64,000 nt of DNA, from contig NZ_CP029608.1 in NCBI RefSeq assembly GCF_003352185.1, forward strand, positions 4,092,001 to 4,156,000. The letters are read 5' to 3'. The translations under genes were made by a program, and so were the position numbers. The DNA comes from Pseudomonas kribbensis (lineage in GTDB: Bacteria; Pseudomonadota; Gammaproteobacteria; Pseudomonadales; Pseudomonadaceae). Numbering within the stretch: position 1 is the stretch's first letter; every line of letters begins with the position of its first letter. Below the pieces are notes generated by a model that saw nothing but the letters and a program-made list of their open reading frames with translations, was not told where the DNA came from and did no database searches. Shown one piece after another: positions 14,626-33,497 of this stretch.

Positions 14626-14661
14626 GCATAGGGCGCGGCACGGCTGAAACCTGATCAAATA

Positions 14662-14678
14662 GTAGCTTTGTGCTACCA
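14662..14678. repeat. Short inverted repeat upstream of the Nudix operon
   Basis: GTAGC and GCTAC flank TTTGT about 95 bases before the first gene of the three-gene operon. It could be a small hairpin or an operator half-site pair. It sits where the base composition switches from GC-rich chromosome to AT-rich insert. Confidence 0.4.
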
Positions 14679-14767
14679 TGCCACCCATCCATTCAGCGCC
14701 GTCGAACTCTGACTGGTAATTTTGAATCTTTTCAGATCATTTCCGACCTACTGTACCGAGGACGATT

Positions 14768-16516
14768 GTGTATAAAGGAATTTTCAAACATGTATTGCTT
14801 ACACTCGCAATACTTTACCTATACGACCTTACCTTCAAAACATCAGAATTTTACTTTCAGCTTATCGGCGCACTCATTGTAAACGTTCTTTTCTGGGACC
14901 TTACAACTAAACGCTACCTGACAAAATTCAGCGCCCCCTTCACGCTTATCTGGAAATGGAAAGCAAAAATCTTTCTCACCGATCCAAGCCCGCAAAACCT
15001 CACAAAACTCAAAGAATTTTTCAAACGCTGGATTCTCAAAGATGACAGCCTCACACGCGAATTCATTGACGGGCTTTCTGACAAATCAGCCGCAGCACTG
15101 GTGATTACCCTACAAGGTGAGAAAGATATAAAACAATCGAGTTCACTTAAATTTTCAGACTTCAAAACAGCCGTCAGCAAAGCTTCGAAATGGCACGAAT
15201 ATCGGCGTTTTCTTCTTAAAAAAGCGACGTCCGACTTCCCTTCTACCCAAAAAATCGTAGAGTCGTTGCCCCCCCTTTCCGACTATGTGATTGGTGACGA
15301 CCTAAAGCTCGTATCAGATGACGTATTCTCGAAAAAGCTTGACGATACCGACAACGAAGTCATTCACATCTTCACAACAACTTCACAACTTTCCTCTGAC
15401 TTCATCACCACCATTTCCAATCACAAGGAAGATATTAAAACTCTGCATTTTTATATCTGCAGCCCCTACATTGATACTCACAAATCTCTGCTTGACCTCA
15501 AACAGGAATATGAAAACCCTGCGTTCACCAGACAGTGGGGCCAATTTGTTGACCACGCAGATTACGGTGTAAACATTGAAGCTGACATGATCCGCAGGAT
15601 GATCAAGATTCTCGGTGCCATTCGCGAACTGTCCAAGCTTTCGAAGGACCTGAACATCGAGTTGCACCTCTTCACTGAACGTTATCCCGGCGTGAAAATA
15701 AAAATGCTGGAGCAGCAGGGTTATGCACAAATTCAGCCCGGACCTCTGACTTACGCCAACAACATCTACCGATTTGCAGTGGATGTTGTGCAGTACGATC
15801 AGATAAAAACCTTAAAAGAAGACTTGAAAAACTTCCGCGAAAGCAATCAAGTAGAAACAATCAAACTCGACAGCACGTCAAGAAAAGCCATCACCGAACA
15901 AGCCATAAAAGAAATGTGCCAATGGCTGTACACACAAGGTTTTACATCAAAAGAGCTTTCCAGCTCACAAAAAAGAATAAGGGACACCGCCAAGGATCCT
16001 GAATCGGACAAAATAATTAATGACATCTCGCGCACTCTGTTAAAAGTTTCCGAACTCCTAAAGACCGGCGATCAAGTTAGTGAAATCAAGTCACCTGATG
16101 GGACAGTCACTCACTTCTCCGTAGCTCTGATGATCGAACAAAACAAAGAAATACTGTTAATAAAAAAATCCGACAGCTTCTATCAGGAAAAATACAGCAT
16201 TGTCGCCGGGCACGTGAATCGACATGAAACCCCAGTAGAGGCTATCCACAGAGAAGTTTATGAAGAATTGGGTGTTACCCTGACTTCACCTCAACTGATT
16301 GCACCGGCGTTTTTACTTGACGACGCCTGCCGTCACGGGGGCAATAGACATCTATGGTTTGTATTCAAGGCTCAACTGACCAGTCAAAACTTCATTCTCG
16401 ACAGTTCCGAAATCAGTTACACCAAGTTTGTTCCAGTCGAGAAGCTTTCAGGCTACACAGACAAACTCACCCCCGGCGCACTCGGCGTACTCAAGCAACT
16501 GGGCTATCTGTCATGA
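14768..16516 (+). CDS. Two-TM membrane protein with unknown middle region and C-terminal Nudix domain
   Basis: A 582-residue protein that starts at GTG with GAGGA six bases upstream. Two hydrophobic segments lie at about residues 6-23 and 28-44, so it is anchored in the inner membrane with most of the protein in the cytoplasm. Residues 60-370 form a region I do not recognise (VIHIFTTTSQLSS, TLHFYICSPYID, IELHLFTERYPGVKIKML), with a helical stretch near 350-370. Residues about 440-582 are a Nudix hydrolase; the Nudix box G-x5-E-x7-R-E-V-x-E-E-x-G-V is complete at 481-503, so it should bind metal and hydrolyse a nucleoside diphosphate derivative. GC content is about 35-40% on sample lines, against above 60% in the flanks, which points to horizontal origin. 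Its TGA overlaps the next gene's ATG (ATGA). Confidence 0.8.
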   Translation: MYKGIFKHVLLTLAILYLYDLTFKTSEFYFQLIGALIVNVLFWDLTTKRYLTKFSAPFTLIWKWKAKIFLTDPSPQNLTKLKEFFKRWILKDDSLTREFIDGLSDKSAAALVITLQGEKDIKQSSSLKFSDFKTAVSKASKWHEYRRFLLKKATSDFPSTQKIVESLPPLSDYVIGDDLKLVSDDVFSKKLDDTDNEVIHIFTTTSQLSSDFITTISNHKEDIKTLHFYICSPYIDTHKSLLDLKQEYENPAFTRQWGQFVDHADYGVNIEADMIRRMIKILGAIRELSKLSKDLNIELHLFTERYPGVKIKMLEQQGYAQIQPGPLTYANNIYRFAVDVVQYDQIKTLKEDLKNFRESNQVETIKLDSTSRKAITEQAIKEMCQWLYTQGFTSKELSSSQKRIRDTAKDPESDKIINDISRTLLKVSELLKTGDQVSEIKSPDGTVTHFSVALMIEQNKEILLIKKSDSFYQEKYSIVAGHVNRHETPVEAIHREVYEELGVTLTSPQLIAPAFLLDDACRHGGNRHLWFVFKAQLTSQNFILDSSEISYTKFVPVEKLSGYTDKLTPGALGVLKQLGYLS

Positions 16517-17232
16517 CCATCGTCATCAAACTGCCAGGTGCAGGCATGATCAAAAAGGGGCCGGCCACCTCCAGTATCGAATGGCTGGGTTACCGAGACT
16601 ATCGGATAGACGCCGGTTTCTACCGTGACCTGCTCACCTTGATCTCCTCTCGGAATGACACCCACAAACTGGTGATCGTCTCGGGCGGCGTCGGCTCGCA
16701 CCTGCAACTGAACCTTGCAAAAGAACTGGGTGCCAGCAGCGATGACCTGAAAATAATCGGCACAGATCATGTGAGAACCTTGCAGCGAATCTTCCTTTCC
16801 TGCTGCGAAAAATACGACGCCGTCGTACATGACACACTTCTGCCCGTTCATGAGTTGAAAACGGTCATGGCCGCCAGCGATGCATCGGTCTTTTTTGTCG
16901 ATCCCGATACACGATTTGCATCCACCGACTCCCTGGCAGCGGCGGCGGCACAGGCGATATCCGCCGACAGACTGATCGTCTTCAAGGCAAAGGTGCCTTT
17001 GTTTTCCGCAGGATTCGATGCCCCCACACGTATCGAGAAATGGCCGATAGACAACCTCATTGAGCGCGCCGAGTCCTTTGAAGCCCTGAACTCCGGACAC
17101 TACATCATGGACAGGGCGTCACTGGAAATCATCCGCGACGCCGGCATCAGCAGCTATCTGCTTGCGCCGGAAAATTACTCAGCCTTGTTTGACATTGAAC
17201 AGTGCGACCAGGCTACGGAGATCGTTTTGTGA
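16513..17232 (+). CDS. Amino-acid-kinase-superfamily (UMP-kinase-like) protein
   Basis: A 239-residue protein coupled to the preceding gene by ATGA. The fold signs are those of the amino acid kinase superfamily: an N-terminal beta strand with Lys (IVIKLPGAG, Lys6), a glycine-rich loop after the second strand (LVIVSGGVGS, about 55-64), and the late segment STDSLAAAAAQAISADRLIVFKAKV (from residue 137), which matches the T-D-x-x-A-A-x-x-A-x-x-x-x-A-D pattern that binds ATP and contacts the substrate in UMP and aspartate kinases. The first loop reads LPGAG rather than the canonical SGE of UMP kinase, so the substrate may differ. Base composition is near the chromosomal average, unlike the gene before it. 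A nucleotide substrate is inferred from the neighbours. Confidence 0.7.
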   Translation: MTIVIKLPGAGMIKKGPATSSIEWLGYRDYRIDAGFYRDLLTLISSRNDTHKLVIVSGGVGSHLQLNLAKELGASSDDLKIIGTDHVRTLQRIFLSCCEKYDAVVHDTLLPVHELKTVMAASDASVFFVDPDTRFASTDSLAAAAAQAISADRLIVFKAKVPLFSAGFDAPTRIEKWPIDNLIERAESFEALNSGHYIMDRASLEIIRDAGISSYLLAPENYSALFDIEQCDQATEIVL

Positions 17233-17792
17233 GTGTTTTGAGTGACGCCGATATTCTGCAAGCACAGAACGGTGCGGAGCTGGAAATCATCGATTTCGAT
17301 GTTCAATGCCTGCGCTCGTCCAGCTATCTGCTTCGGTTGCACGACCGATTGCTGGTTCGCGATTCCGCGCCGGTCGTCATCGACAGCCGCTCAACGGACA
17401 CGGCTTCCTTATTCAGCGAAGTCACGATACCGGCCGAAGGTTATGTGTTGGAGCCCGGAAAACTTTACCTGGCTTCATCGGTGGAAAGGCTGCGGTTGGG
17501 GCACAACCTGTGTGCCGATATGGGTCTGCTGTCGTGCTATGCCCGCATTGGACTGAATCTGAATTTCGGTTCCAATTTCGTGGCAGCCACTTTCGGCATG
17601 GGCATCGCCTCAAGGCTGACACTGGAAATCATCAACCTGTCTCACGACCGCATTCGAATCTATCCCGGTGTCAAGTTCTGCCACTTGCGATTCCATCAAC
17701 AGCTTTCTCCTAGCAGCTCCCCGTATTCGGGTATTTATGCGGCTGGAGAACAGACACTGCCAACGAACTTCAACCTCAAACCGGCGCGATAA
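17229..17792 (+). CDS. dCTP deaminase-like protein (DCD/dUTPase superfamily)
   Basis: A 187-residue protein with a GTG start that overlaps the kinase gene's stop (GTGA); GGAG lies eight bases upstream. It keeps the dCTP deaminase landmarks: SCYARIG at 102-108, where Arg106 matches the conserved Arg of E. coli Dcd, and LTLEIINL with Glu133 at the place of the catalytic glutamate, then the terminal beta strand IRIYPGVKFCHLRF. The length is close to E. coli Dcd (193). Members deaminate dCTP to dUTP, or act as dUTPases, or both; phage-defence deaminases that drain dCTP also belong here. The exact activity is not decided by these motifs. It ends the three-gene operon; hemB is convergent 25 bases further on. 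Confidence 0.78.
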   Translation: MSVLSDADILQAQNGAELEIIDFDVQCLRSSSYLLRLHDRLLVRDSAPVVIDSRSTDTASLFSEVTIPAEGYVLEPGKLYLASSVERLRLGHNLCADMGLLSCYARIGLNLNFGSNFVAATFGMGIASRLTLEIINLSHDRIRIYPGVKFCHLRFHQQLSPSSSPYSGIYAAGEQTLPTNFNLKPAR

Positions 17793-17817
17793 ACGCCGGC
17801 GCAACACTGTTCCGGTT

Positions 17818-22979: not shown

Positions 22980-25900
22980 TCAGAAGCTTTGGCTGAAGCT
23001 GATGGTCATCGCGCTGTCGTTGTTGTCGCTGGACACCTGGCCCGAATAGCCGATGCCGAGCTTGCCGGTCGGGCTGATCTGGAAGTCCACGCCGGCTTCG
23101 AGCAGTGCGCTGTCCTTGGCGATCGGCACGCCCTGGGTGCTGAACGACGCACCGCCGTCGATGAAGGTCAGGTCGGCATCCGGCTTGGTATCGCCGTAGG
23201 CATGCCGCCAGCCGATGGCTGCGCGCGGGGTCAGTTGACTGCCGTTGGCCAGGGTCACCAACTTGCCGATGCGCACACCGAGGGTCGAGTAGGTGATGTC
23301 CTGATCGGCATCGCCCTTCAGGCGCCCCACTCCGCCTTTTTCCTTGGCGGTGTCGCTGTCGTAGTTGACGTAGGCCAGGCCGGCGAACGGTTCGATGGCC
23401 ACGCCGGCCGCATTGATGGCGTAACCCACTTCACCGAACACCTGGGCACTGCGGGCATCGTAGTCAGCCTTCAGACGGTCGTTGTAGGCACCGACGCTGA
23501 CGTCGCGTTTGGTTTCGATGCTGTGCCAGCTGTAAGCCGCGCCGAGGCGCACGGCCAGTGCATCGAACTGCGAACTCAGGTACGCCGCCAGGTGGTAGCT
23601 GTCGACCTTGGCATCGGAGTTGCGATCGTGGGCGTTGAGGTTGCCACGGGTGTAACCCGCGGCCATCCCGGCGCGCCATTGATCGTCGAGCTGCTTGTCG
23701 GTGCCGAGCATGAAACCGCCGAGGCTGCGATCGACTTTCGCCGTGTTGCTGTCGCCGCCCATGTCGCCCCAGGCACCGATGGCACGGGCCCAGCCGACCA
23801 TTTCACCGTGACAGCCGCTGCTGCTCAACTGGGTGTCACTCGGTGCCAGCGTGCGACGTGGATCGTCCGACGCGCTGCAAGTCGGTTGACGCATGCGGTC
23901 GTTGACCGCTTCACGCACGAAACGTGAATCCTCAAGGACCGCGCTCGCGGTGCTGGCATGGATTTCCCCCGACAGACTGTCGAAGGCGTGACGCGCACCG
24001 GCCACGCTGAGGTTGACGATTTCGTTCTGCAAAGCAGCGCCCGCCGGACCGTTGCGCATCAATGCCGAAGCGGTGTTGCGCTGGTTGCGGGTGGCGGCCA
24101 CGTCGGCGAACGAATTGCCGTTGCGGCTGACCACCAGGTTCACCGCGTCAGGGCTGTACACCAGCGCCGTGTCGAGGAACGCGTATTGCGGCAGATCGGC
24201 GGCGCTGAACGTGCCATTCACGCCACCGCCGGCGGTGATCAGTGAGTACACGGTGTTGCCGGTAAACGGCGCCAGGCTGTTCACTTGCAGGCCACCGCCC
24301 AGGGTTGCCGTGCCGCCGACAGCCAGAGGCGTAGCGGTTGGCGAGCTGACGGTCAGGGCCAGCACACCGTCCGGGGCGTTGGTCAGGTTGCCCGCCACAC
24401 TCAAGGTGCCGTCACCGCCACCGGAGGCCACCACACCGTGGTTGACCACCGAACCGACGCTGCCGTTACCGCTCAGGGCTGCGCCGTTGGCCACGGTCAC
24501 TTGTCCGCCCAGAGAGGCGCGCGCCGCACGGCTGCCGACTTGCAGCACACCTTGATCCACCGACACGGTGCCGCTGAATGGTTGGTCGCCGGTCAACAGC
24601 ATGCGCGCCGCACCGCGTTTTGCCAGTGCGCCGACGCCACTCAGACGACCATTGAACTGGCCATCGGTGTTCTGCTGGAACACTACCGAAGCGTTATCGA
24701 CGATATTGCCTTGCAGGCTGGTGGTGTTACCGACCAGCGTACCGCCGCTGACGGTGGTGCCACCGCTGTAAGTGTTGGCTGCGGTGAGGATCAGGGTGCC
24801 GGAGTCGAGTTTCTCGATCCCGCCAGTGCCAATCAATGGCACATCGATTTGCGTGGTAGCGCCGGCATTGACGCGGATCGGCGCCGGTGTGCCGCCAGGT
24901 CCGTTGACCGGGGTCAGCGTATCGCCGGCATCCGGTACCAGGCTGTAGCCGTTGACGAGGAATTGCAGCCCGGTGAAGTTCTGATTGCCCTGCACGGTGA
25001 CCGTCCCGCCCTGCCCGCCGAACACCGCGAACTGGCCGTTGGAGCCCAGCGCCTGAGTACCGGTCGGGTCGGTCCAGTTGGTGCCCGGACCCCACACGCC
25101 ACTGCCGCCTCCGATGCTGCCGTCCGGGTTGGTCTTGCCGCCGTTCCAGAACTGCACTTCGCCCGGCGTGTTCTGTACCAGCAGGTTGACCTGATTGGCC
25201 AGCGCGGTTTGCAGGGTCAGATTGGCCGCCGAAACCGGCAGGCTGCCGTAGACCAGACCGTTGTCGGTGAGCATGCCGCCGTAGCTGAACAGTTGATACA
25301 CACCGGTGCCGAAGCCGCCGGCGTTAGTGATGTTCAGCGTACCGTCGAGGGTCAGGTTGCCGGCAACGTTGACCACGGTTGTGGAGCTGGCGGCCGAGCC
25401 GAGGGTGAAGTCCAGATTGGTCCCCGAAGACAACGCCAGGGATCCGACCGACAACGGCGTCGCGCTGCCGCCACCCAGCAGGGTCGCACCGCTGGCCAGT
25501 TGCACGGCGCCACCGAACTGGCCGCTGCCGCCGATTTTCGCGCCGCTGGCGACATCGACGCTGGCGCTGTTGAGCACGCCATTGACGTTCAGCGTACCGG
25601 CCTGAACCGAGGTGTTGCCGGTGAAGGTGTTGTTGCCGGTCAACAGCAAGGCGCCGGTACCGGTTTTGTTCAGGATGCCGGCGCCGGTCAGATTGCCGGT
25701 GTAGCTGCCGTCGCTGTTTTGCTCGAAGGTCAGCGTCGCGTTGTTGACGATGGCGCCTTGCAGACTGCTGGTGTCGCCACGGGTGCTGCCGCCGTTCAGC
25801 GTGGTGCCGCCGCTGTAGGTGTTGGCGCCACTGAGCAACAGATCGCCATTGCCGTTTTTCACCAGGCTGCCGCTGCCGGTGACCGCACCGATCAGCGTGG

Positions 25901-28900
25901 TGTTCTGGTTGCCGGCCAGGGTCAATTGCGCACCCAGATTGATGGCGTTGGCCAGTTGCAGCGCCGAGGTGCTGTCGAGGGTGCCATTGCCCGACACAGT
26001 CAGAGCACCGCTGCTGATCGCGCTGTTGTTGCCCAGAACCAGCGTACCGCCGGCGAGCTGGGTACCGCCGCTGTAGGTGTTGCTGCCATTGAGCGTCAGG
26101 CTCGATGGGCCGGTCTTGATCAGGCTGCCGCTGCCGCTGACCACGCCGCCGAGGGTCAAGGCGTTGGATCCGGCGACGGTGAGTCCGCCATTGAGCACCA
26201 CATCATTGGCCAGGCTGACGGCCGTGTTGCTGTCCAGCGCCGTGCCGTTGGCGGCGGTCAATATGCCAGTGCCGAGGGCCGCATTGTTGCCGACCACAAT
26301 CTTGCCGCCATTGAGCGCGGTGCCGCCGGTGTAGCCGTTGGCGGCGTTGAGCACCAGGGTGCCGGTGTCGTATTTGCCCAGTGTGCCGGCGCCGTTGAGC
26401 GCAACGCCCACGGTGGCGGTGACGTTCGGATCGACCCGCACGGTGGCATTGCCCAGCGAACCGTTGACCAGATTCAGCGAACCCGCCGTGCCGTTCTGCA
26501 GGTTGTAGCCGTCGGTGACGAACTGCATGCCGGTGATGGTTTGCGCGCCGTTGACGGTCACGGTGCCTGCCGCGCCCTGGAACACTGCGAAGCTGTTAGT
26601 CCAGGCCTGATTGGTGGTGCCGTTCACATCGGTCCAGTTGGTGGTGCCGGTGCCCCAGGTGCCGCTGCCGCCATCCACCGAACCGTTGGCGACGAGTTGG
26701 TTGCCGTCCCAGAACTGCACGGTGACGCCCGGGGCGGTGACCAGCAGGTTGATCTGGTTGGCCAGTGCGGTTTGCAGGGTCAGGTCGCCCGGGGTGACGC
26801 TGCCGGGAATGGTGCCGATCAGCATGCCGTTGTCGGTCAGGCCGCCGGTGTAGTTGATCAACCGGTAAACGCCGCTGCCGAAACCGCCGATGTCGCTGAC
26901 GTTGAGGGTGCCGTCGAGGGTCAGATTACCGCCGACGTTGACCAGCGCATTGCCGCCACCGGACACCGGTGCGCCGAGGCCGACGTCGAAGTTGGAGTTG
27001 GCGTTGAACACCAGCGAATTCACCGACAGGGTGCTGCCGGTGGCGCCGGCCAGATGACCGCCATCCGCCACGGTCACCGCCCCGCCGAGCGAGCCGCCGC
27101 CGGTCAGGGTGCCGCCGCTGTTGACCAGTACGCTGGCGCTGTCCAGCGAGCCACTGACGTTCAAGGTGCCGGCGTTGACCGTGGTGTTGCCGGTCAGGCT
27201 GTTGAGGCCGGTCAGGGTCAGCGTACCGGTGCCGAGTTTGCTCAGCTCGCCGGTGCCGGTGAGTACGCCGTCGAAAATGCTGCTGGCGTTGTTGCCGCCG
27301 ATGCTCAGGGTGTTGCCGCCGCCGATCAGTGCGGTACCGCTGCCGGTCAGGCTGGCGAGGCTGCCCGAACCGCCGAGGTTCAGCGTCGCCGCAGCGCCGA
27401 GATTGACCCCGGCGTTGCTGCCCAGTGCCGAGTTGCCCAGCGTGGTCAGGCTGCCGGACTGCACGTCGAAGGTGCCGCTGAAGGTGTTGTTGCCGGTCAG
27501 CGTCAGGTCGGCCAGACCGTTCTTGGTCAGGGTGCCGGCCCCGGCGATCACGCCACCGAGGGTCAGGTTGTTGTTGCCGGCCACGCTGAGGTTGGCATTG
27601 ACGTTGAGGTTGTTGGCCAGTACCAGCGGCGCCGTGGTGTCGAGGGTCGATGCGCCCGCCACGGTCACCGTGCCGGAACCCAGGCCCGCCGAGGTGCCGA
27701 GGGTCACGGTGCCGGCGTTCAGCGTGGTGCCGCCGCTGTAGGTGTTGATGCCATTGAGGGTCAGGTTCGAGGCGCCGTTCTTGATCAATCCACCGGTGCC
27801 GCTGACTACGCCGCTGATGGCTACGTCGCTGTTGCCGGTGTTGGTCAGGTTGGCGTTGAGCACCACGTTGTTGCCCAGCGACACCGAGGTGTTGCTGTCC
27901 AGCGCCGAGGCACCGGCCACGGTCAGGTTGCCCAGACCGAGGGCGCCGTTGCTGCCGGCGGTCAGGGTGCCGGCATTGAGGGTGACGCCACCGAGGAAGT
28001 TGTTGGCTCCGGACAGGATCAGGTTGGCCGCACCATTCTTGGTCAGGCTGCCGGCGCCGTTGATGGCGCCGCTGAGGGTCAGATCGTTGCTGCCGACGAT
28101 AGCGAGGTTGCCCGCCAGGTTGATCGCGTTGGCCGCGCTGAAGGCGCCGCTGGCATCCAGGGTGGTGCCGTTGGCCGCGTTCAGGGTGGCCGAGCCCAGC
28201 GCGCTGTTCGACGCCAGAATCAGACCGCCCGCGTTCAGTGCCACCGGCCCGAGGAAGGCGTTGTTGCCGCCAAGGGTCAGGCTGGCCGAACCGTTCTTGA
28301 TCAAACCGCCGGTGCCGGAAATCACACCGTTGAGGGTCAGGGCATTGCTGCCGAGCACGGTGAGGTTACCGTTCAACGTGGTCGCGTTGGCCAGGGTCAC
28401 GGCGGTGTTGCTGTCCAGTTGCGTGCCGGCATTGGCGATCAACGCGCCAGTGCCCAGCGCAGTGTTGCTGCCAACCACCAGGGTGCCGCCGTCCAGTTGC
28501 GTGCCGCCGGTGTAGCTGTTGGCGCCGTTGAGCACCAGGGTGCCGGCGTCGAGTTTGTTAAGAATGCCGCTGCCGTCGATGTTCACACCGACCGTGGCAG
28601 TCACGCCCGGATCGACCCGCATCGCCGTGGTGCCACCGCTGCCGTTGACCGCGGTCAGCAGACCCGACGTACCGTTGACCACGTTGTAGCCATTGGTGAG
28701 GAATTGCATCCCGGTGAACAGTTGCGTGCCGTTGACCGACACCGTGCCCGCCGTGCCCTGGAACACCGCGAAGTCGCCGGCCCAGGTCTGGTTCAGCGTG
28801 CCGTTGGAATTGGTCCAGTTGGTGCCGCCGGCATCCCAGGTGCCAGTGCCGCCATCCACCGTGCCGTTCGGGATTGTCTGGCTGCCGTCCCAGAAACGCA

Positions 28901-31900
28901 GGTTGGTGTTCGGCGCCGACACCACCAGGTTGACCTGGTTACCGAGGGTCTGCACGAGGATGTCGCCGAGGCCGTAACCCACCGGCACGCCGGCCACGGT
29001 CAGGCCGTTGTCGGTCAGTGCACCGATGAAGTTGAACAGCCGATAGACACCGACACCGAAACCGCCGGCATCGGTGACGTTGAGATTACCGTCGAGGGTC
29101 AGGTTGCCGCCGATGTTCATCAGCGACGAAGTCGATGGCGTGGCGAGGCTTGCGTCGACGTTGCTGTTGGCGGTGAGGATCAGCGACGAGGTGGAAAAGG
29201 TATTGCCCGAGGACAAAGCCAGATGACCACCGCTGTTGACGGTGATGACGCCAAGCGCCGAACCGGTACCCGTGAGGGTCGCACCGTTGTTGACGTTGAG
29301 CTGGGTGCTGGCCAGCGATCCGGTGAGATTCAGCGTGCCGGCGTTGACATTGGTATTGCCGGTAATGCCGCTGCTGCCGGTGAGGTTCAGCGTCCCGGTA
29401 CCGACCTTGGTCAGCGCACCGCTGCCGCCGAGGTCGCCGTCGAAGGTGCTGGTGCTGTTCACGCCGCCCACGGTCAGGGTGTTGCCGCCGGCGATCTGCA
29501 CACTGCCGCTGCCGCTCAAGCCGTTGAGGCTGGCGCTGCTGTTGAGATTGAGATTGGCACCGGCACTAATGTTGGCGCCGGAGGTGTTGCCCAGCGCCCC
29601 GCTGCTCACGGTAGTGACGCTGCCGGAGGCGATGTTCAGCGCACCGGTGAAGGTGTTGTTGCCGCTGAGCGTCAGGTCGCCGAAGCCGTCCTTGGTCAGG
29701 CTGCCGGCGCCATCGATCACGCCGCTGAGGTTCAGGGTGTTGCTGCCGGCCAGGGTCAAACCGGCGTTGAGGGTGATGTTGTTGCCAATGCTCATGCCGG
29801 CGCTGGTATCCAGCGTCGAAGCGCCACCGACGGTCAGGCCGCCACTGCCCAACGCAGCGGCCGAGCCCAGTGTCAGCGTACCGGCGTTGAGGGTGCTGCC
29901 GCCGCTGTAGGTGTTGGTGCCGTTGACGGTCAGGTTGGCCGCGCCGTTCTTGATCAACTGGCCGGCGCCGCTGATCACACCGCCGAGGGTCAGGTCCTGG
30001 GTGCCGCCGACGCTCAGAGCCGCATTGAGCACGACCGCGTTGGCCAGGCTGACCAGCGGCGAACTGCTGTCGAGGGTTGCTGCGCCGCCGACAGTCAAGG
30101 CGCCGGTGCCGAGGGCCGAGCTGTTGCCGGCGGTCACTGTACCGGCGTTCAGCGTGGTGCCGCCGACGTAAGTGTTGGTGCCATTGAGGTTCAGATTGGC
30201 CGCGCCGTTTTTCACCAGACTGCCGGCTCCGGCGACAGTGCCGGTGAGGGTCAGGTCTGCGCTGCCACCCACATTCATCGCACCGGCCAGGTTGACCTGA
30301 TTGCCCAGCGTGACGGCGGTGTTGGTGTCCAGCGTGGTGCCCGCCGCGGCGTTCAATGCGCCGCTGCCGAGCGCGGTATTGCTGCCGACAATCAGCTTGC
30401 CGACGTTGAGTGCGGTGTTGCCGAAGTAGGTGTTGGCGCCGTTGAGAATCAGGTCGGCGGGGCCGCTTTTGGTCAGGCCGCCGACACCGGAGACCACGCC
30501 CGCGAGGGTCAGCGCGTTGCTGCCGCCGATGGTCACGTTGCCGCCTAGGTTGACGTTGTTGGCCAGGCTGGTCGCGGTGCTGGCGTCCAGCGTGGTGTTG
30601 TTGCCGGCATTGAGCACGCCGGTACCGAGTGCGGTATTGGAGCCGACGATCAGTGTCCCGGCGTTCAGCGACGTAGAACCGGTGTAGGTGTTGTTACCGG
30701 TCAGGGTCAGCGTTGAAGAACCGGTCTTGATCAGGTTGCTGCCGCCGCTGATCACGCCGCCGAGGGTCAGCGGGTTGGCGCCGCCGGCAGTCAGGTTGGC
30801 GTTCAGCGCAATCGCGTTGTTCAGCGTCACGTTGGCGCTGCTGTTGAGCGTTGCGCTCCCCCCCACGGTCAGCGTGCCGGTACCGAGTGCCGCGCCGTTG
30901 CCGACGGTCAGGCTGCCGGCGTTGAGCGTGGTGCCACCGGTGAAGGTGTTGGCGCCGTTGACGGTCAGGTTGGCGGTGCCGTTCTTGATCAACTGACTGG
31001 CACCGCTGAGCACGCCACCCAGGATCAAGCCGTTGCTGCCAGCGATGGACAGGTTGCCGTTGAGGGCGACGTTGTTGTTCAGGATGACCGAGGTGTTGCT
31101 GTCGAGGGTCGCGGCATTGGCAACGGTCAGGTCGCCGCTGCCCAATGCGGCGGCGTTGCCGACGGTCAGGGTGCCGGCGTTCAGGGTGGTGCCGCCGCTG
31201 AAGGTGTTGGCGCCGTTGAGAACCAGGTTGGCCGCGCCGTTCTTGGTCAGCCCGCCGCTGCCACTGACCACGCCGCCGAGGGTCAGGTTGGCGTTGCCGG
31301 CGATGTTCAGGTTGCCGCCGAGGGCGACGGCGTTACTCAGGGCCACGGCGGTGCTGGCATCGAGGGTGGTGCCTGCCGCCGTGGTCAGTGCGCCGGTCCC
31401 GAGCGCGGTGTTGGAGCCGACGATCAGCGTCCCGTTGTTCAGCGTGGTACCGCCGGAGAAGGTGTTGTTGCCGCTGAGGGTCAGGTTCGCGGTGCCGCCC
31501 TTGATCAGGCTGCCGGCGCCGCTGATGACGCCGCTCAGGCCAAGCGCCTGAGTGCCACCGATGGTCAGCCCGCCCGCCAGCGCCACTGCGTTGGCCAGGG
31601 TCACCGCCGTGGTCGCATCCAGCGTGGTGCCGGCCGCAGCGTTCAATGCGCCGGTGCCGAGGGCTGTGTTGCTGCCGACGAACAAGGTGCCGCCGTTGAG
31701 CGCGGTGGTGCCGCTGTTGGTGTTGTTGCCGGTCAGGGTCAGGCTGGCGCTGCCGCTCTTGGTGATCGCGCCGGTGCCGGAGACGATGCCGGCCAAAGTC
31801 AGGGCGTTGCTGCCGAGCACGTTCAACGCACCGGTGATGCCGACGTTGTTGGCCAGGGTCACGTTGCCGGTGCTGTCGAGGCTGGTGCCGTTGCTGGTGT

Positions 31901-33497
31901 TGAGGACCCCGGTGCCCAGGGCGTTGTTGTTGCCGACGCGCAAGGTGCCGGCGCTGAGGCTGGTGATCCCGGTGTAGGTGTTGATGCCGTTGAGGGTCAG
32001 GCTGCCGCTGCCGGTTTTGGTCAGGTTGGCGGCGCCGCTGATCACCCCGCCCAGGGTCAGCGCACCAGTGCCGGTCGCGGTCAGGGTGCTGTTGAGCGTG
32101 ATCGCGTTGGCCAGCGAAATCGGCGCCGTCGCCGAGATGCTCGAAGAGCCGCCGACGGTGATACCGCCGGTACTGAACGCCTGGTTGTTGCCCACCAGCA
32201 CCACACCGCCGTTGAGTACGGTGTTGCCGGTGTAAGTGTTGATGCCGTTGAGGTTGAGCTGACCGCTGCCGATCTTGGTCAGGCCACCGGTGCCGGAAAT
32301 CACACCGTTCAGGGTCGTACCGTTGATGCCCTGCAAGGTCAGGCCGCCGGCACCGAGGTTGATCTGGTTGGCCAGCGTCAAACCAGCGTTGCTGGCCTGA
32401 AGGATGCCGCCGTTGGACGTCAGCACACCGCTGCCGAACGCGCCGTTGTCGTTGAACTGTGCGACACCGCCATTGAGGGTGGTCGCACCGCTGACCAACG
32501 GACCCTGCAAGGTCCAGGTGCCGCTGTTGAGGGTCAGGTTGTTGAAGTTGACATAGACCGCGCTGGACGCCGTGCCGGTCCCGGTAGTGCCGCCGCCGAG
32601 GCCGATCGGGTTTTGCAGGATCAGCGTGTTGGTCCCCGCCGCGCCGCCATCGATCGTGCCGGTCGGGGCGAAGGTCAGGTTGACGCCGATCAGGCCTCCA
32701 AGGCCGACGGAGACTTGCACGCCGTCACCGACGTTAACGCTCGAACCGGTGATCGCGTAGAAGGTGTTGGTGCTGCCCGCCCCCATCGACAAACCGCCGG
32801 TGATGTTACCGGCGTTGGTGAAGGTGTTGCCCGCCACTGACGTTTCGAACGCCATCCGGCCGTTGATCGTGCCGCTGGCGCTGTTGGTCATGTTGACCTG
32901 CGAACCGCCATACACCCCGACCACCGGGGTATCGGCCAGGGTAATGCCGCCGACCGACAGCCCGGTCGAGGTAATCGTGCCGTCGTTGGTGATGGTCGTG
33001 GTGCCCGACACCGAGTTGTTCACGGCAATCCCCAGACCGTCGATGCTGGTCAGGTTGAGGCCGAGCAGCATGCCGGTGCCGCGAATGATCCCGGTGGTGT
33101 TGTTGGCGATGCTCACCGTGCTGGTCGCGCCGGTGCCGATGAACGCGCCGCCACTGAGAATCGAAACCAGGCCGAGCAACGCCGGGTCGAGGGTGCCGGA
33201 GTTGTTCAGGTTGATGTTGGCCCCGGTCAGGTTGATCACCTTGCCGCCCAGCGTCGCGTTCATCTGCGCGCCGTTGGTGACGTTGACCGTCACGCCGCTG
33301 CTGGCGCTGCTGTAGTCATTGAGAAACAGCGGCAGGGTCGGAACACCCGAACAGGTGATCGTCGAGCCCGCGGCCGAGCAGGTGGCGAACGCCTGCTCGC
33401 TGACCCCGCCGAACAGAAGTCCGGCGACGCTCAGGTGCACTGCAAGGGAAAGTGGGGAAAAGCGCGAAACGAGGGCGACACCAAACCTTGCTTCCAC
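22980..33497 (-). CDS. Giant autotransporter with beta-strand repeat passenger
   Basis: A 3505-residue type V secretion protein with a GTG start and a strong GGAG seven bases upstream. A signal peptide (cleavage after QAFA) is followed by a passenger. From about residue 420 to 2985 I count some 24 copies of the autotransporter-associated beta-strand repeat, each like L-x-G-x-N-T-Y-S-G-G-T-T-L-N-A-G-T-L. Most sit in a longer unit of about 70 residues (ALGTGAL, TLDSNTAVTLANAV, GVISGAGSLIKNGAANL). Three long insert modules near residues 1532, 2259 and 2782 each begin F-W-D/N-G and run through NWTD, FAVFQG and GMQF. The barrel spans about 3230-3505 and ends in SFSQSF. It probably forms a long beta-helix at the surface for adhesion or aggregation. 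It is divergent from tsx. Confidence 0.95.
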   Translation of the reverse strand: MEARFGVALVSRFSPLSLAVHLSVAGLLFGGVSEQAFATCSAAGSTITCSGVPTLPLFLNDYSSASSGVTVNVTNGAQMNATLGGKVINLTGANINLNNSGTLDPALLGLVSILSGGAFIGTGATSTVSIANNTTGIIRGTGMLLGLNLTSIDGLGIAVNNSVSGTTTITNDGTITSTGLSVGGITLADTPVVGVYGGSQVNMTNSASGTINGRMAFETSVAGNTFTNAGNITGGLSMGAGSTNTFYAITGSSVNVGDGVQVSVGLGGLIGVNLTFAPTGTIDGGAAGTNTLILQNPIGLGGGTTGTGTASSAVYVNFNNLTLNSGTWTLQGPLVSGATTLNGGVAQFNDNGAFGSGVLTSNGGILQASNAGLTLANQINLGAGGLTLQGINGTTLNGVISGTGGLTKIGSGQLNLNGINTYTGNTVLNGGVVLVGNNQAFSTGGITVGGSSSISATAPISLANAITLNSTLTATGTGALTLGGVISGAANLTKTGSGSLTLNGINTYTGITSLSAGTLRVGNNNALGTGVLNTSNGTSLDSTGNVTLANNVGITGALNVLGSNALTLAGIVSGTGAITKSGSASLTLTGNNTNSGTTALNGGTLFVGSNTALGTGALNAAAGTTLDATTAVTLANAVALAGGLTIGGTQALGLSGVISGAGSLIKGGTANLTLSGNNTFSGGTTLNNGTLIVGSNTALGTGALTTAAGTTLDASTAVALSNAVALGGNLNIAGNANLTLGGVVSGSGGLTKNGAANLVLNGANTFSGGTTLNAGTLTVGNAAALGSGDLTVANAATLDSNTSVILNNNVALNGNLSIAGSNGLILGGVLSGASQLIKNGTANLTVNGANTFTGGTTLNAGSLTVGNGAALGTGTLTVGGSATLNSSANVTLNNAIALNANLTAGGANPLTLGGVISGGSNLIKTGSSTLTLTGNNTYTGSTSLNAGTLIVGSNTALGTGVLNAGNNTTLDASTATSLANNVNLGGNVTIGGSNALTLAGVVSGVGGLTKSGPADLILNGANTYFGNTALNVGKLIVGSNTALGSGALNAAAGTTLDTNTAVTLGNQVNLAGAMNVGGSADLTLTGTVAGAGSLVKNGAANLNLNGTNTYVGGTTLNAGTVTAGNSSALGTGALTVGGAATLDSSSPLVSLANAVVLNAALSVGGTQDLTLGGVISGAGQLIKNGAANLTVNGTNTYSGGSTLNAGTLTLGSAAALGSGGLTVGGASTLDTSAGMSIGNNITLNAGLTLAGSNTLNLSGVIDGAGSLTKDGFGDLTLSGNNTFTGALNIASGSVTTVSSGALGNTSGANISAGANLNLNSSASLNGLSGSGSVQIAGGNTLTVGGVNSTSTFDGDLGGSGALTKVGTGTLNLTGSSGITGNTNVNAGTLNLTGSLASTQLNVNNGATLTGTGSALGVITVNSGGHLALSSGNTFSTSSLILTANSNVDASLATPSTSSLMNIGGNLTLDGNLNVTDAGGFGVGVYRLFNFIGALTDNGLTVAGVPVGYGLGDILVQTLGNQVNLVVSAPNTNLRFWDGSQTIPNGTVDGGTGTWDAGGTNWTNSNGTLNQTWAGDFAVFQGTAGTVSVNGTQLFTGMQFLTNGYNVVNGTSGLLTAVNGSGGTTAMRVDPGVTATVGVNIDGSGILNKLDAGTLVLNGANSYTGGTQLDGGTLVVGSNTALGTGALIANAGTQLDSNTAVTLANATTLNGNLTVLGSNALTLNGVISGTGGLIKNGSASLTLGGNNAFLGPVALNAGGLILASNSALGSATLNAANGTTLDASGAFSAANAINLAGNLAIVGSNDLTLSGAINGAGSLTKNGAANLILSGANNFLGGVTLNAGTLTAGSNGALGLGNLTVAGASALDSNTSVSLGNNVVLNANLTNTGNSDVAISGVVSGTGGLIKNGASNLTLNGINTYSGGTTLNAGTVTLGTSAGLGSGTVTVAGASTLDTTAPLVLANNLNVNANLSVAGNNNLTLGGVIAGAGTLTKNGLADLTLTGNNTFSGTFDVQSGSLTTLGNSALGSNAGVNLGAAATLNLGGSGSLASLTGSGTALIGGGNTLSIGGNNASSIFDGVLTGTGELSKLGTGTLTLTGLNSLTGNTTVNAGTLNVSGSLDSASVLVNSGGTLTGGGSLGGAVTVADGGHLAGATGSTLSVNSLVFNANSNFDVGLGAPVSGGGNALVNVGGNLTLDGTLNVSDIGGFGSGVYRLINYTGGLTDNGMLIGTIPGSVTPGDLTLQTALANQINLLVTAPGVTVQFWDGNQLVANGSVDGGSGTWGTGTTNWTDVNGTTNQAWTNSFAVFQGAAGTVTVNGAQTITGMQFVTDGYNLQNGTAGSLNLVNGSLGNATVRVDPNVTATVGVALNGAGTLGKYDTGTLVLNAANGYTGGTALNGGKIVVGNNAALGTGILTAANGTALDSNTAVSLANDVVLNGGLTVAGSNALTLGGVVSGSGSLIKTGPSSLTLNGSNTYSGGTQLAGGTLVLGNNSAISSGALTVSGNGTLDSTSALQLANAINLGAQLTLAGNQNTTLIGAVTGSGSLVKNGNGDLLLSGANTYSGGTTLNGGSTRGDTSSLQGAIVNNATLTFEQNSDGSYTGNLTGAGILNKTGTGALLLTGNNTFTGNTSVQAGTLNVNGVLNSASVDVASGAKIGGSGQFGGAVQLASGATLLGGGSATPLSVGSLALSSGTNLDFTLGSAASSTTVVNVAGNLTLDGTLNITNAGGFGTGVYQLFSYGGMLTDNGLVYGSLPVSAANLTLQTALANQVNLLVQNTPGEVQFWNGGKTNPDGSIGGGSGVWGPGTNWTDPTGTQALGSNGQFAVFGGQGGTVTVQGNQNFTGLQFLVNGYSLVPDAGDTLTPVNGPGGTPAPIRVNAGATTQIDVPLIGTGGIEKLDSGTLILTAANTYSGGTTVSGGTLVGNTTSLQGNIVDNASVVFQQNTDGQFNGRLSGVGALAKRGAARMLLTGDQPFSGTVSVDQGVLQVGSRAARASLGGQVTVANGAALSGNGSVGSVVNHGVVASGGGDGTLSVAGNLTNAPDGVLALTVSSPTATPLAVGGTATLGGGLQVNSLAPFTGNTVYSLITAGGGVNGTFSAADLPQYAFLDTALVYSPDAVNLVVSRNGNSFADVAATRNQRNTASALMRNGPAGAALQNEIVNLSVAGARHAFDSLSGEIHASTASAVLEDSRFVREAVNDRMRQPTCSASDDPRRTLAPSDTQLSSSGCHGEMVGWARAIGAWGDMGGDSNTAKVDRSLGGFMLGTDKQLDDQWRAGMAAGYTRGNLNAHDRNSDAKVDSYHLAAYLSSQFDALAVRLGAAYSWHSIETKRDVSVGAYNDRLKADYDARSAQVFGEVGYAINAAGVAIEPFAGLAYVNYDSDTAKEKGGVGRLKGDADQDITYSTLGVRIGKLVTLANGSQLTPRAAIGWRHAYGDTKPDADLTFIDGGASFSTQGVPIAKDSALLEAGVDFQISPTGKLGIGYSGQVSSDNNDSAMTISFSQSF

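Follow-up and report, generated by a model that had tools for sequence, protein, structure and literature searches.

The window analysed here, a 64,000-nucleotide stretch of Pseudomonas kribbensis DNA (NZ_CP029608.1, positions 4,092,001 to 4,156,000) within a complete chromosome of 6.32 Mb, carries three overlapping genes whose products, which we call P1, P2 and P3, are a Nudix protein with an extra middle domain, a putative kinase and a dCTP-deaminase-like protein. This trio is rare, has been acquired horizontally and travels as a unit. We propose, with a probability of roughly 40%, that it forms an accessory pyrimidine-nucleotide module that probably acts against phages. Each part has pyrimidine enzymes among the solved structures near it (NudI and MutT2 for P1, UMP kinase for P2 and dCTP deaminase for P3), and a pyrimidine module is favoured because the three parts share such relatives and because genes so tightly coupled are usually functional partners. 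The three families are known; their combination is, as far as searched, undescribed.

Gene order and overlaps in five loci

P1 (14768-16516, + strand) starts with GTG and encodes 582 amino acids, P2 (16513-17232, + strand) starts with ATG and encodes 239, and P3 (17229-17792, + strand) starts with GTG and encodes 187. A first-pass annotation, made from the sequence alone, had read 14768-17792 as three overlapping genes, and the open reading frames (ORFs) and junctions are as it claimed: ATGA joins P1 to P2 and GTGA joins P2 to P3, with an overlap of 4 nt each. From these overlaps we infer translational coupling of the three genes and, more tentatively, a control of their stoichiometry. All three products match Pfam profiles above the gathering thresholds (NUDIX at 4.9e-15 in P1, AA_kinase, PF00696, at 1.9e-11 in P2 and DCD at 8.9e-25 in P3), and at this level the three earlier domain calls hold; the Nudix fold is further confirmed by a good structure model, and the kinase fold has a poor model behind it.

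We read five trio loci: that of the window, that of another species of the same genus (genome G312, locus L019), and those of Stenotrophomonas nematodicola (L002), Klebsiella sp. BIGb0407 (L003) and Aeromonas bivalvium (L004, in which P1 includes a masked stretch). The same three genes are found together in all five, in the order P1-P2-P3 and with overlaps of 4-14 nt. Between the window and G312 trios the proportion of differing synonymous sites (pS) is 0.66-0.77, with the synonymous sites of P1 saturated, and the proportion of differing nonsynonymous sites (pN) is 0.13-0.24; the trio is under purifying selection. The trio is more than a chance arrangement, because order and overlaps are kept in all five loci despite identities of 32-74% between the window's P2 and those of the other four, and because pN lies well below pS.

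A promoter scan is at chance level (2 found, 3.6 expected), an Rfam search gives no match and a repeat search returns short, chance-like matches only. Terminator-like sites are in excess (9 against 3.7 expected, standard deviation 2.1), seven of the nine lying on the minus strand and eight within the trio genes.

A rare unit at a variable chromosomal site

The three trio loci outside the genus come from a scan of the contigs of 84,980 species genomes with the P1 middle domain as query. Counted by group, carriers number 2 of 398 genomes in the window's genus (the window's included), 1 of 369 in its class (the window's own), 2 of 394 in the Klebsiella order and 1 of 198 in the Stenotrophomonas family (the last two groups adding no new locus). 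These counts are lower bounds on carriers, since some near records may have been hidden and strict patterns were used for the first look. Beyond the window's own clusters there are protein relatives of P1 (at least 11, among the best 7999 candidates scored), P2 (one) and P3 (20, one of them partial), the named ones including Pantoea, Pectobacterium, Rouxiella and Pyxidicoccus; they are annotated singly, as 'NUDIX hydrolase', 'uridylate kinase' or 'dCTP deaminase'. A DCD-type match in a further genome, G1422, has by eye no P1 or P2 adjoining it within 3.5 kb of sequence.

Carriage on plasmids or phages is not supported. On plasmids, P3 matches distant proteins only, in 14 records of which none covers 80% of P3, and P1 matches one record, via its Nudix part. 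P1 has no phage match, and the 100 phage records matched by P3 all cover less than 80% of it; among the 15 matches listed, identity is 28-31% and the usual annotation is dCTP deaminase or dUTPase. A pattern scan of viral contigs finds no relative of P1, P2 or P3, and in Escherichia coli genomes the DNA of the Klebsiella trio goes unmatched.

What separates a monooxygenase gene from hemB in the window is the trio, an insert of low GC: the guanine plus cytosine (GC) content is 43.7% in P1, 54.4% in P2 and 53.9% in P3 versus 61.6% for the window. By comparison with empty sites, the whole insert runs from the monooxygenase stop codon to the end of the hemB gene (14626-17817, no strand assigned), and the gap of 3.2 kb in the window compares with 17-137 bp in the empty sites of G016, G011, G019 and G005. 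We surveyed the site in 149 sampled genomes of the genus, 103 of which matched, and read the gaps by hand; besides G000, 38 genomes have two matches, and in 33 of them the two flanks share a contig and lie within 10 kb. The gap is below 300 bp in 27 of these 33 relatives, about 0.66 kb in G033 and G036, and 4.2-9.3 kb in G029, G071, G061 and G073. The cargo of G029 is unrelated to the trio and consists of a peptide-export-type ABC transporter and a ThiF-like adenylyltransferase. Because unrelated cargoes sit there in other genomes, the monooxygenase-hemB gap appears to be generally variable across the genus (variable-site loci L038, L039 and L041).

By eye, G071 and G073 carry TonB-receptor operons with sigma/anti-sigma-like genes at this site, and the gap of three empty sites (L021, L022 and L023) holds palindromic sequences that we take to be REP-like. 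In G000, a second region (C1:6052866-6053246) has 66% identity with a portion of that genome's hemB and is probably a second porphobilinogen synthase gene.

The G312 trio occupies the same chromosomal site as that of the window. Since the pS of the trio far exceeds that of the flanking genes in the same two genomes (0.28-0.43) at this shared site, the comparison suggests that the two trios reached it by separate acquisition or by allele replacement.

The three proteins

P1 is built of N-terminal hydrophobic helices (residues ~2-22 and ~28-47), a helical linker, an alpha/beta domain (~170-345) and a C-terminal Nudix domain (~446-580), so that ~440 residues precede the last. The Nudix box (residues 481-503, GHVNRHETPVEAIHREVYEELGV, encoded at 16208-16276, + strand) is complete (GX5EX7REUXEEXGU) in 14 of 14 P1-family rows, that of the window among them, in agreement with the first reading. 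Solved structures near this part include MutT and NUDT15 besides NudI and MutT2, and in PADLOC it matches the candidate model PDC-S07 (6.1e-8). The proposed two-helix membrane tether is weaker in the window's own P1 than the first-pass annotation had it: the predicted structure places helices at residues 2-22 and 28-47 (predicted local distance difference test, pLDDT, of 61-78 in this block) and 12 of the 14 rows pass a hydropathy threshold of 1.6, the two that miss it being P0015, which is without its N-terminus, and the window's P1, whose best 19-residue mean is 1.53. P1 is probably membrane-anchored. The middle domain has no convincing Pfam or PDB match in sequence-level searches and is, as far as searched, a candidate domain without a described family. 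The order of its strands and helices had raised the suspicion of a PLD domain, a candidate that the sequences do not support: the HxKxxxxD motif is absent from all eight, and comparison of profile hidden Markov models, at the level of sequence, gives a probability of 1.4% against 20 PLDc_2 segments. The domain may still have a known fold.

P2 is a putative kinase, placed by profile in the amino-acid-kinase family. The top match of its family profile is to archaeal UMP kinases (2ij9, E 1e-8), and although its structure model is poor (pLDDT 53.6), the folds nearest to that model are also archaeal UMP kinases, in agreement with the profile. All five loci retain its SGGxG and TD motifs, and the N-terminal Lys is replaced by Arg in three. 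P2 is distinct from the housekeeping enzyme of its hosts: in the five carriers it gives no match to bacterial PyrH (TIGR02075) at E 0.001, and each carrier genome encodes a PyrH above cut-off elsewhere.

P3 is covered by the Pfam DCD profile over residues 3-157 of 187. The first-pass annotation had noted that the catalytic Arg and Glu are kept, and Arg106 and Glu133, together with Ser102, prove invariant in 20 of 20 rows; they align with the Ser, Arg and Glu of canonical Dcd proteins, whose catalytic roles we assume to be those of E. coli dCTP deaminase. P3 has a rebuilt loop following Arg106, longer by four residues in an alignment with 2qxx. At the place of DPG in 2qxx, and of EPE in the Dcd of the window genome itself, this loop carries a conserved AATFG-type sequence. 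The tail is a conserved GIY...F..KP; all five trio P3 proteins lack a KYQGQ-type tail, and the window genome's Dcd has one. Because of the rebuilt loop, the different tail and a score under the NCBIfam equivalog cut-off for Dcd (75.6 bits against TIGR02274, cut-off 92.8), P3 is best classed, by its sequence, as a Dcd-type paralogue with an altered site. All five carrier genomes contain a second, weak Dcd-type match; that of the window genome, the one of the five that was read and aligned, is the Dcd with the KYQGQ tail.

Genomic neighbourhood

The clearest defence context is that of the Stenotrophomonas trio, which lies in a clear defence island: within ~5.5 kb downstream of P3 are a GmrSD-like protein, an FRG protein, an Eco29kI-type restriction enzyme, a C5-methylase and an HNH nuclease. 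The Klebsiella neighbourhood is suggestive of defence. Its next gene, convergent with the trio, encodes a TrlF-family ATPase above cut-off, which also matches the anti-phage protein Ppl under the Ppl cut-off, and upstream are a phage-type repressor and phage families of unknown function. Around the trio, the window and L019 loci have nothing in common beyond the flanks of the site they share, and no neighbour is common to the five loci in ORF lists read by eye, no systematic comparison having been run. Neither the trio nor the eight nearby window proteins match CD-NTase. The proposal of an undescribed nucleotide-based system survives, because the trio co-occurs elsewhere and no biosynthetic cluster is seen around it.

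Elsewhere in the window, a 3505-residue ORF (22980-33497, - strand) contains many similar repeats and a C-terminal stretch, and looks like a very large autotransporter adhesin.

A candidate pyrimidine module and its rivals

In the model that we favour, the 3.0-kb operon, horizontally gained and translationally coupled, would act on a pyrimidine nucleotide against phages or other invading DNA. P1 would be tethered to the inner membrane, where its middle domain may sense infection or a ligand and control the Nudix domain; P2 and P3 would make, convert or bind and hold a pyrimidine nucleotide; and the Nudix domain would hydrolyse that nucleotide, so that a pool needed by the phage is altered or drained. 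A more specific proposal is possible but doubtful: the trio would be a defence system of a class not yet described, whose Nudix protein, tethered to the membrane and equipped with a new sensor domain, would work with repurposed paralogues of UMP kinase and dCTP deaminase to produce and degrade one particular pyrimidine nucleotide upon infection. Several features support the favoured model: the fixed order and overlaps, the patchy presence, the clean insert of deviant GC content, the neighbours in L002 and L003, the pyrimidine enzymes near each part, the purifying selection, and the fact that the trio is extra to PyrH and to the second Dcd-type match.

Two sets of results qualify the defence role. 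No defence genes are seen near the trio in L004, L019 or the window (for L004 and L019 mostly by eye), so that the defence role proposed on first pass is plausible with one of five loci in a clear island, one beside the TrlF-family ATPase and three among other genes. The analogy then drawn to anti-phage dCTP deaminases is also weak: P3 matches the zinc-independent DCD family, neither it nor P2 has a PADLOC match, and the pattern [HC]xE...PCxxC, which we take to define the zinc deaminases, is absent from P1, P2 and P3 of the five trios, the P1 of L004 giving a weak reading across its masked stretch.

It is unlikely, in our judgement, that the trio serves nucleotide hygiene, with P2 and P3 processing and the Nudix domain destroying a damaged or unusual pyrimidine nucleotide from certain niches. 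The near Nudix folds do include the house-cleaning MutT, NudI and NUDT15, and three of the five loci have neighbours that do not look defence-like; however, hygiene enzymes are usually core genes, whereas the trio occurs in just two genomes of the genus, and P1 carries hydrophobic helices and an undescribed domain in the long region before its Nudix domain. We regard as improbable a nucleotide-signalling system of CBASS-like logic, in which P2 and P3 would make or edit a messenger that the Nudix domain of P1, a membrane effector, binds or clears. The two N-terminal helices and separate alpha/beta domain of P1 would suit such a scheme, as would the membership of P2 and P3 in nucleotide-binding families, but the trio matches no model of a nucleotide cyclase or of a CD-NTase, and a Nudix box intact in every family row is more enzyme-like than receptor-like.

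A similarly low probability attaches to the idea that the trio is one part of a pathway for producing a pyrimidine-nucleoside antimetabolite or for self-immunity against it. The transporter and adenylyltransferase cargo of G029 hints that the site may take up competition genes, but a neighbour shared by all five loci is, by eye, lacking. Very unlikely, finally, is that these are ordinary divergent metabolic genes mobilised together with no joint special function: the NUDIX, AA_kinase and DCD families are each common in metabolism, but the order and the overlaps persist in four genera, and each carrier retains its own PyrH and second Dcd-type match.

If the pyrimidine defence module is real, it would mean that pyrimidine enzymes of housekeeping type have been recruited as a coupled unit, and it would give an orphan domain a function. 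Scans for defence systems rely largely on islands and known domains, and a trio of this kind is easily missed because it stands alone among other genes in three of five loci and because its relatives are named gene by gene.

Comparison with known systems

In a literature search of titles and abstract starts we found no description of a Nudix/kinase/dCTP-deaminase-like combination, and an earlier description elsewhere is possible. The nearest concept found is that of the nucleotide-modifying candidate defence systems of DefensePredictor (PMC13092281), whose main text reports predicted systems with a dUTPase, a predicted nucleotide kinase and a pyrophosphohydrolase domain; the words 'deaminase' and 'nudix' are absent from that main text. 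CBASS differs from the trio, in which neither a CD-NTase nor a nucleotide cyclase is matched.

The anti-phage dCTP deaminases (AvcD/DCD) are zinc-type enzymes. With them the trio would share the idea of an attack on the dCTP pool; it differs in that the zinc-deaminase motif is absent from P1-P3 and P2 and P3 go unmatched in PADLOC. Compared with the Nudix hydrolases NudI, MutT and NUDT15, P1 is distinguished by the fusion of its Nudix domain to hydrophobic helices and to a domain without a convincing sequence match. P2 resembles archaeal UMP kinases (TIGR02076; PDB 2ij9 and 2brx) in its amino-acid-kinase family and its SGGxG and TD motifs, and departs from them in its score (28.8 bits against an equivalog cut-off of 158) and in the Lys-to-Arg replacement in three of five loci. 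P3 belongs by profile to the same family as Dcd (TIGR02274/PF22769) and keeps the Ser, Arg and Glu positions, and it is set apart by its sub-cut-off score, its longer, rebuilt loop and a GIY...F..KP tail in place of KYQGQ.

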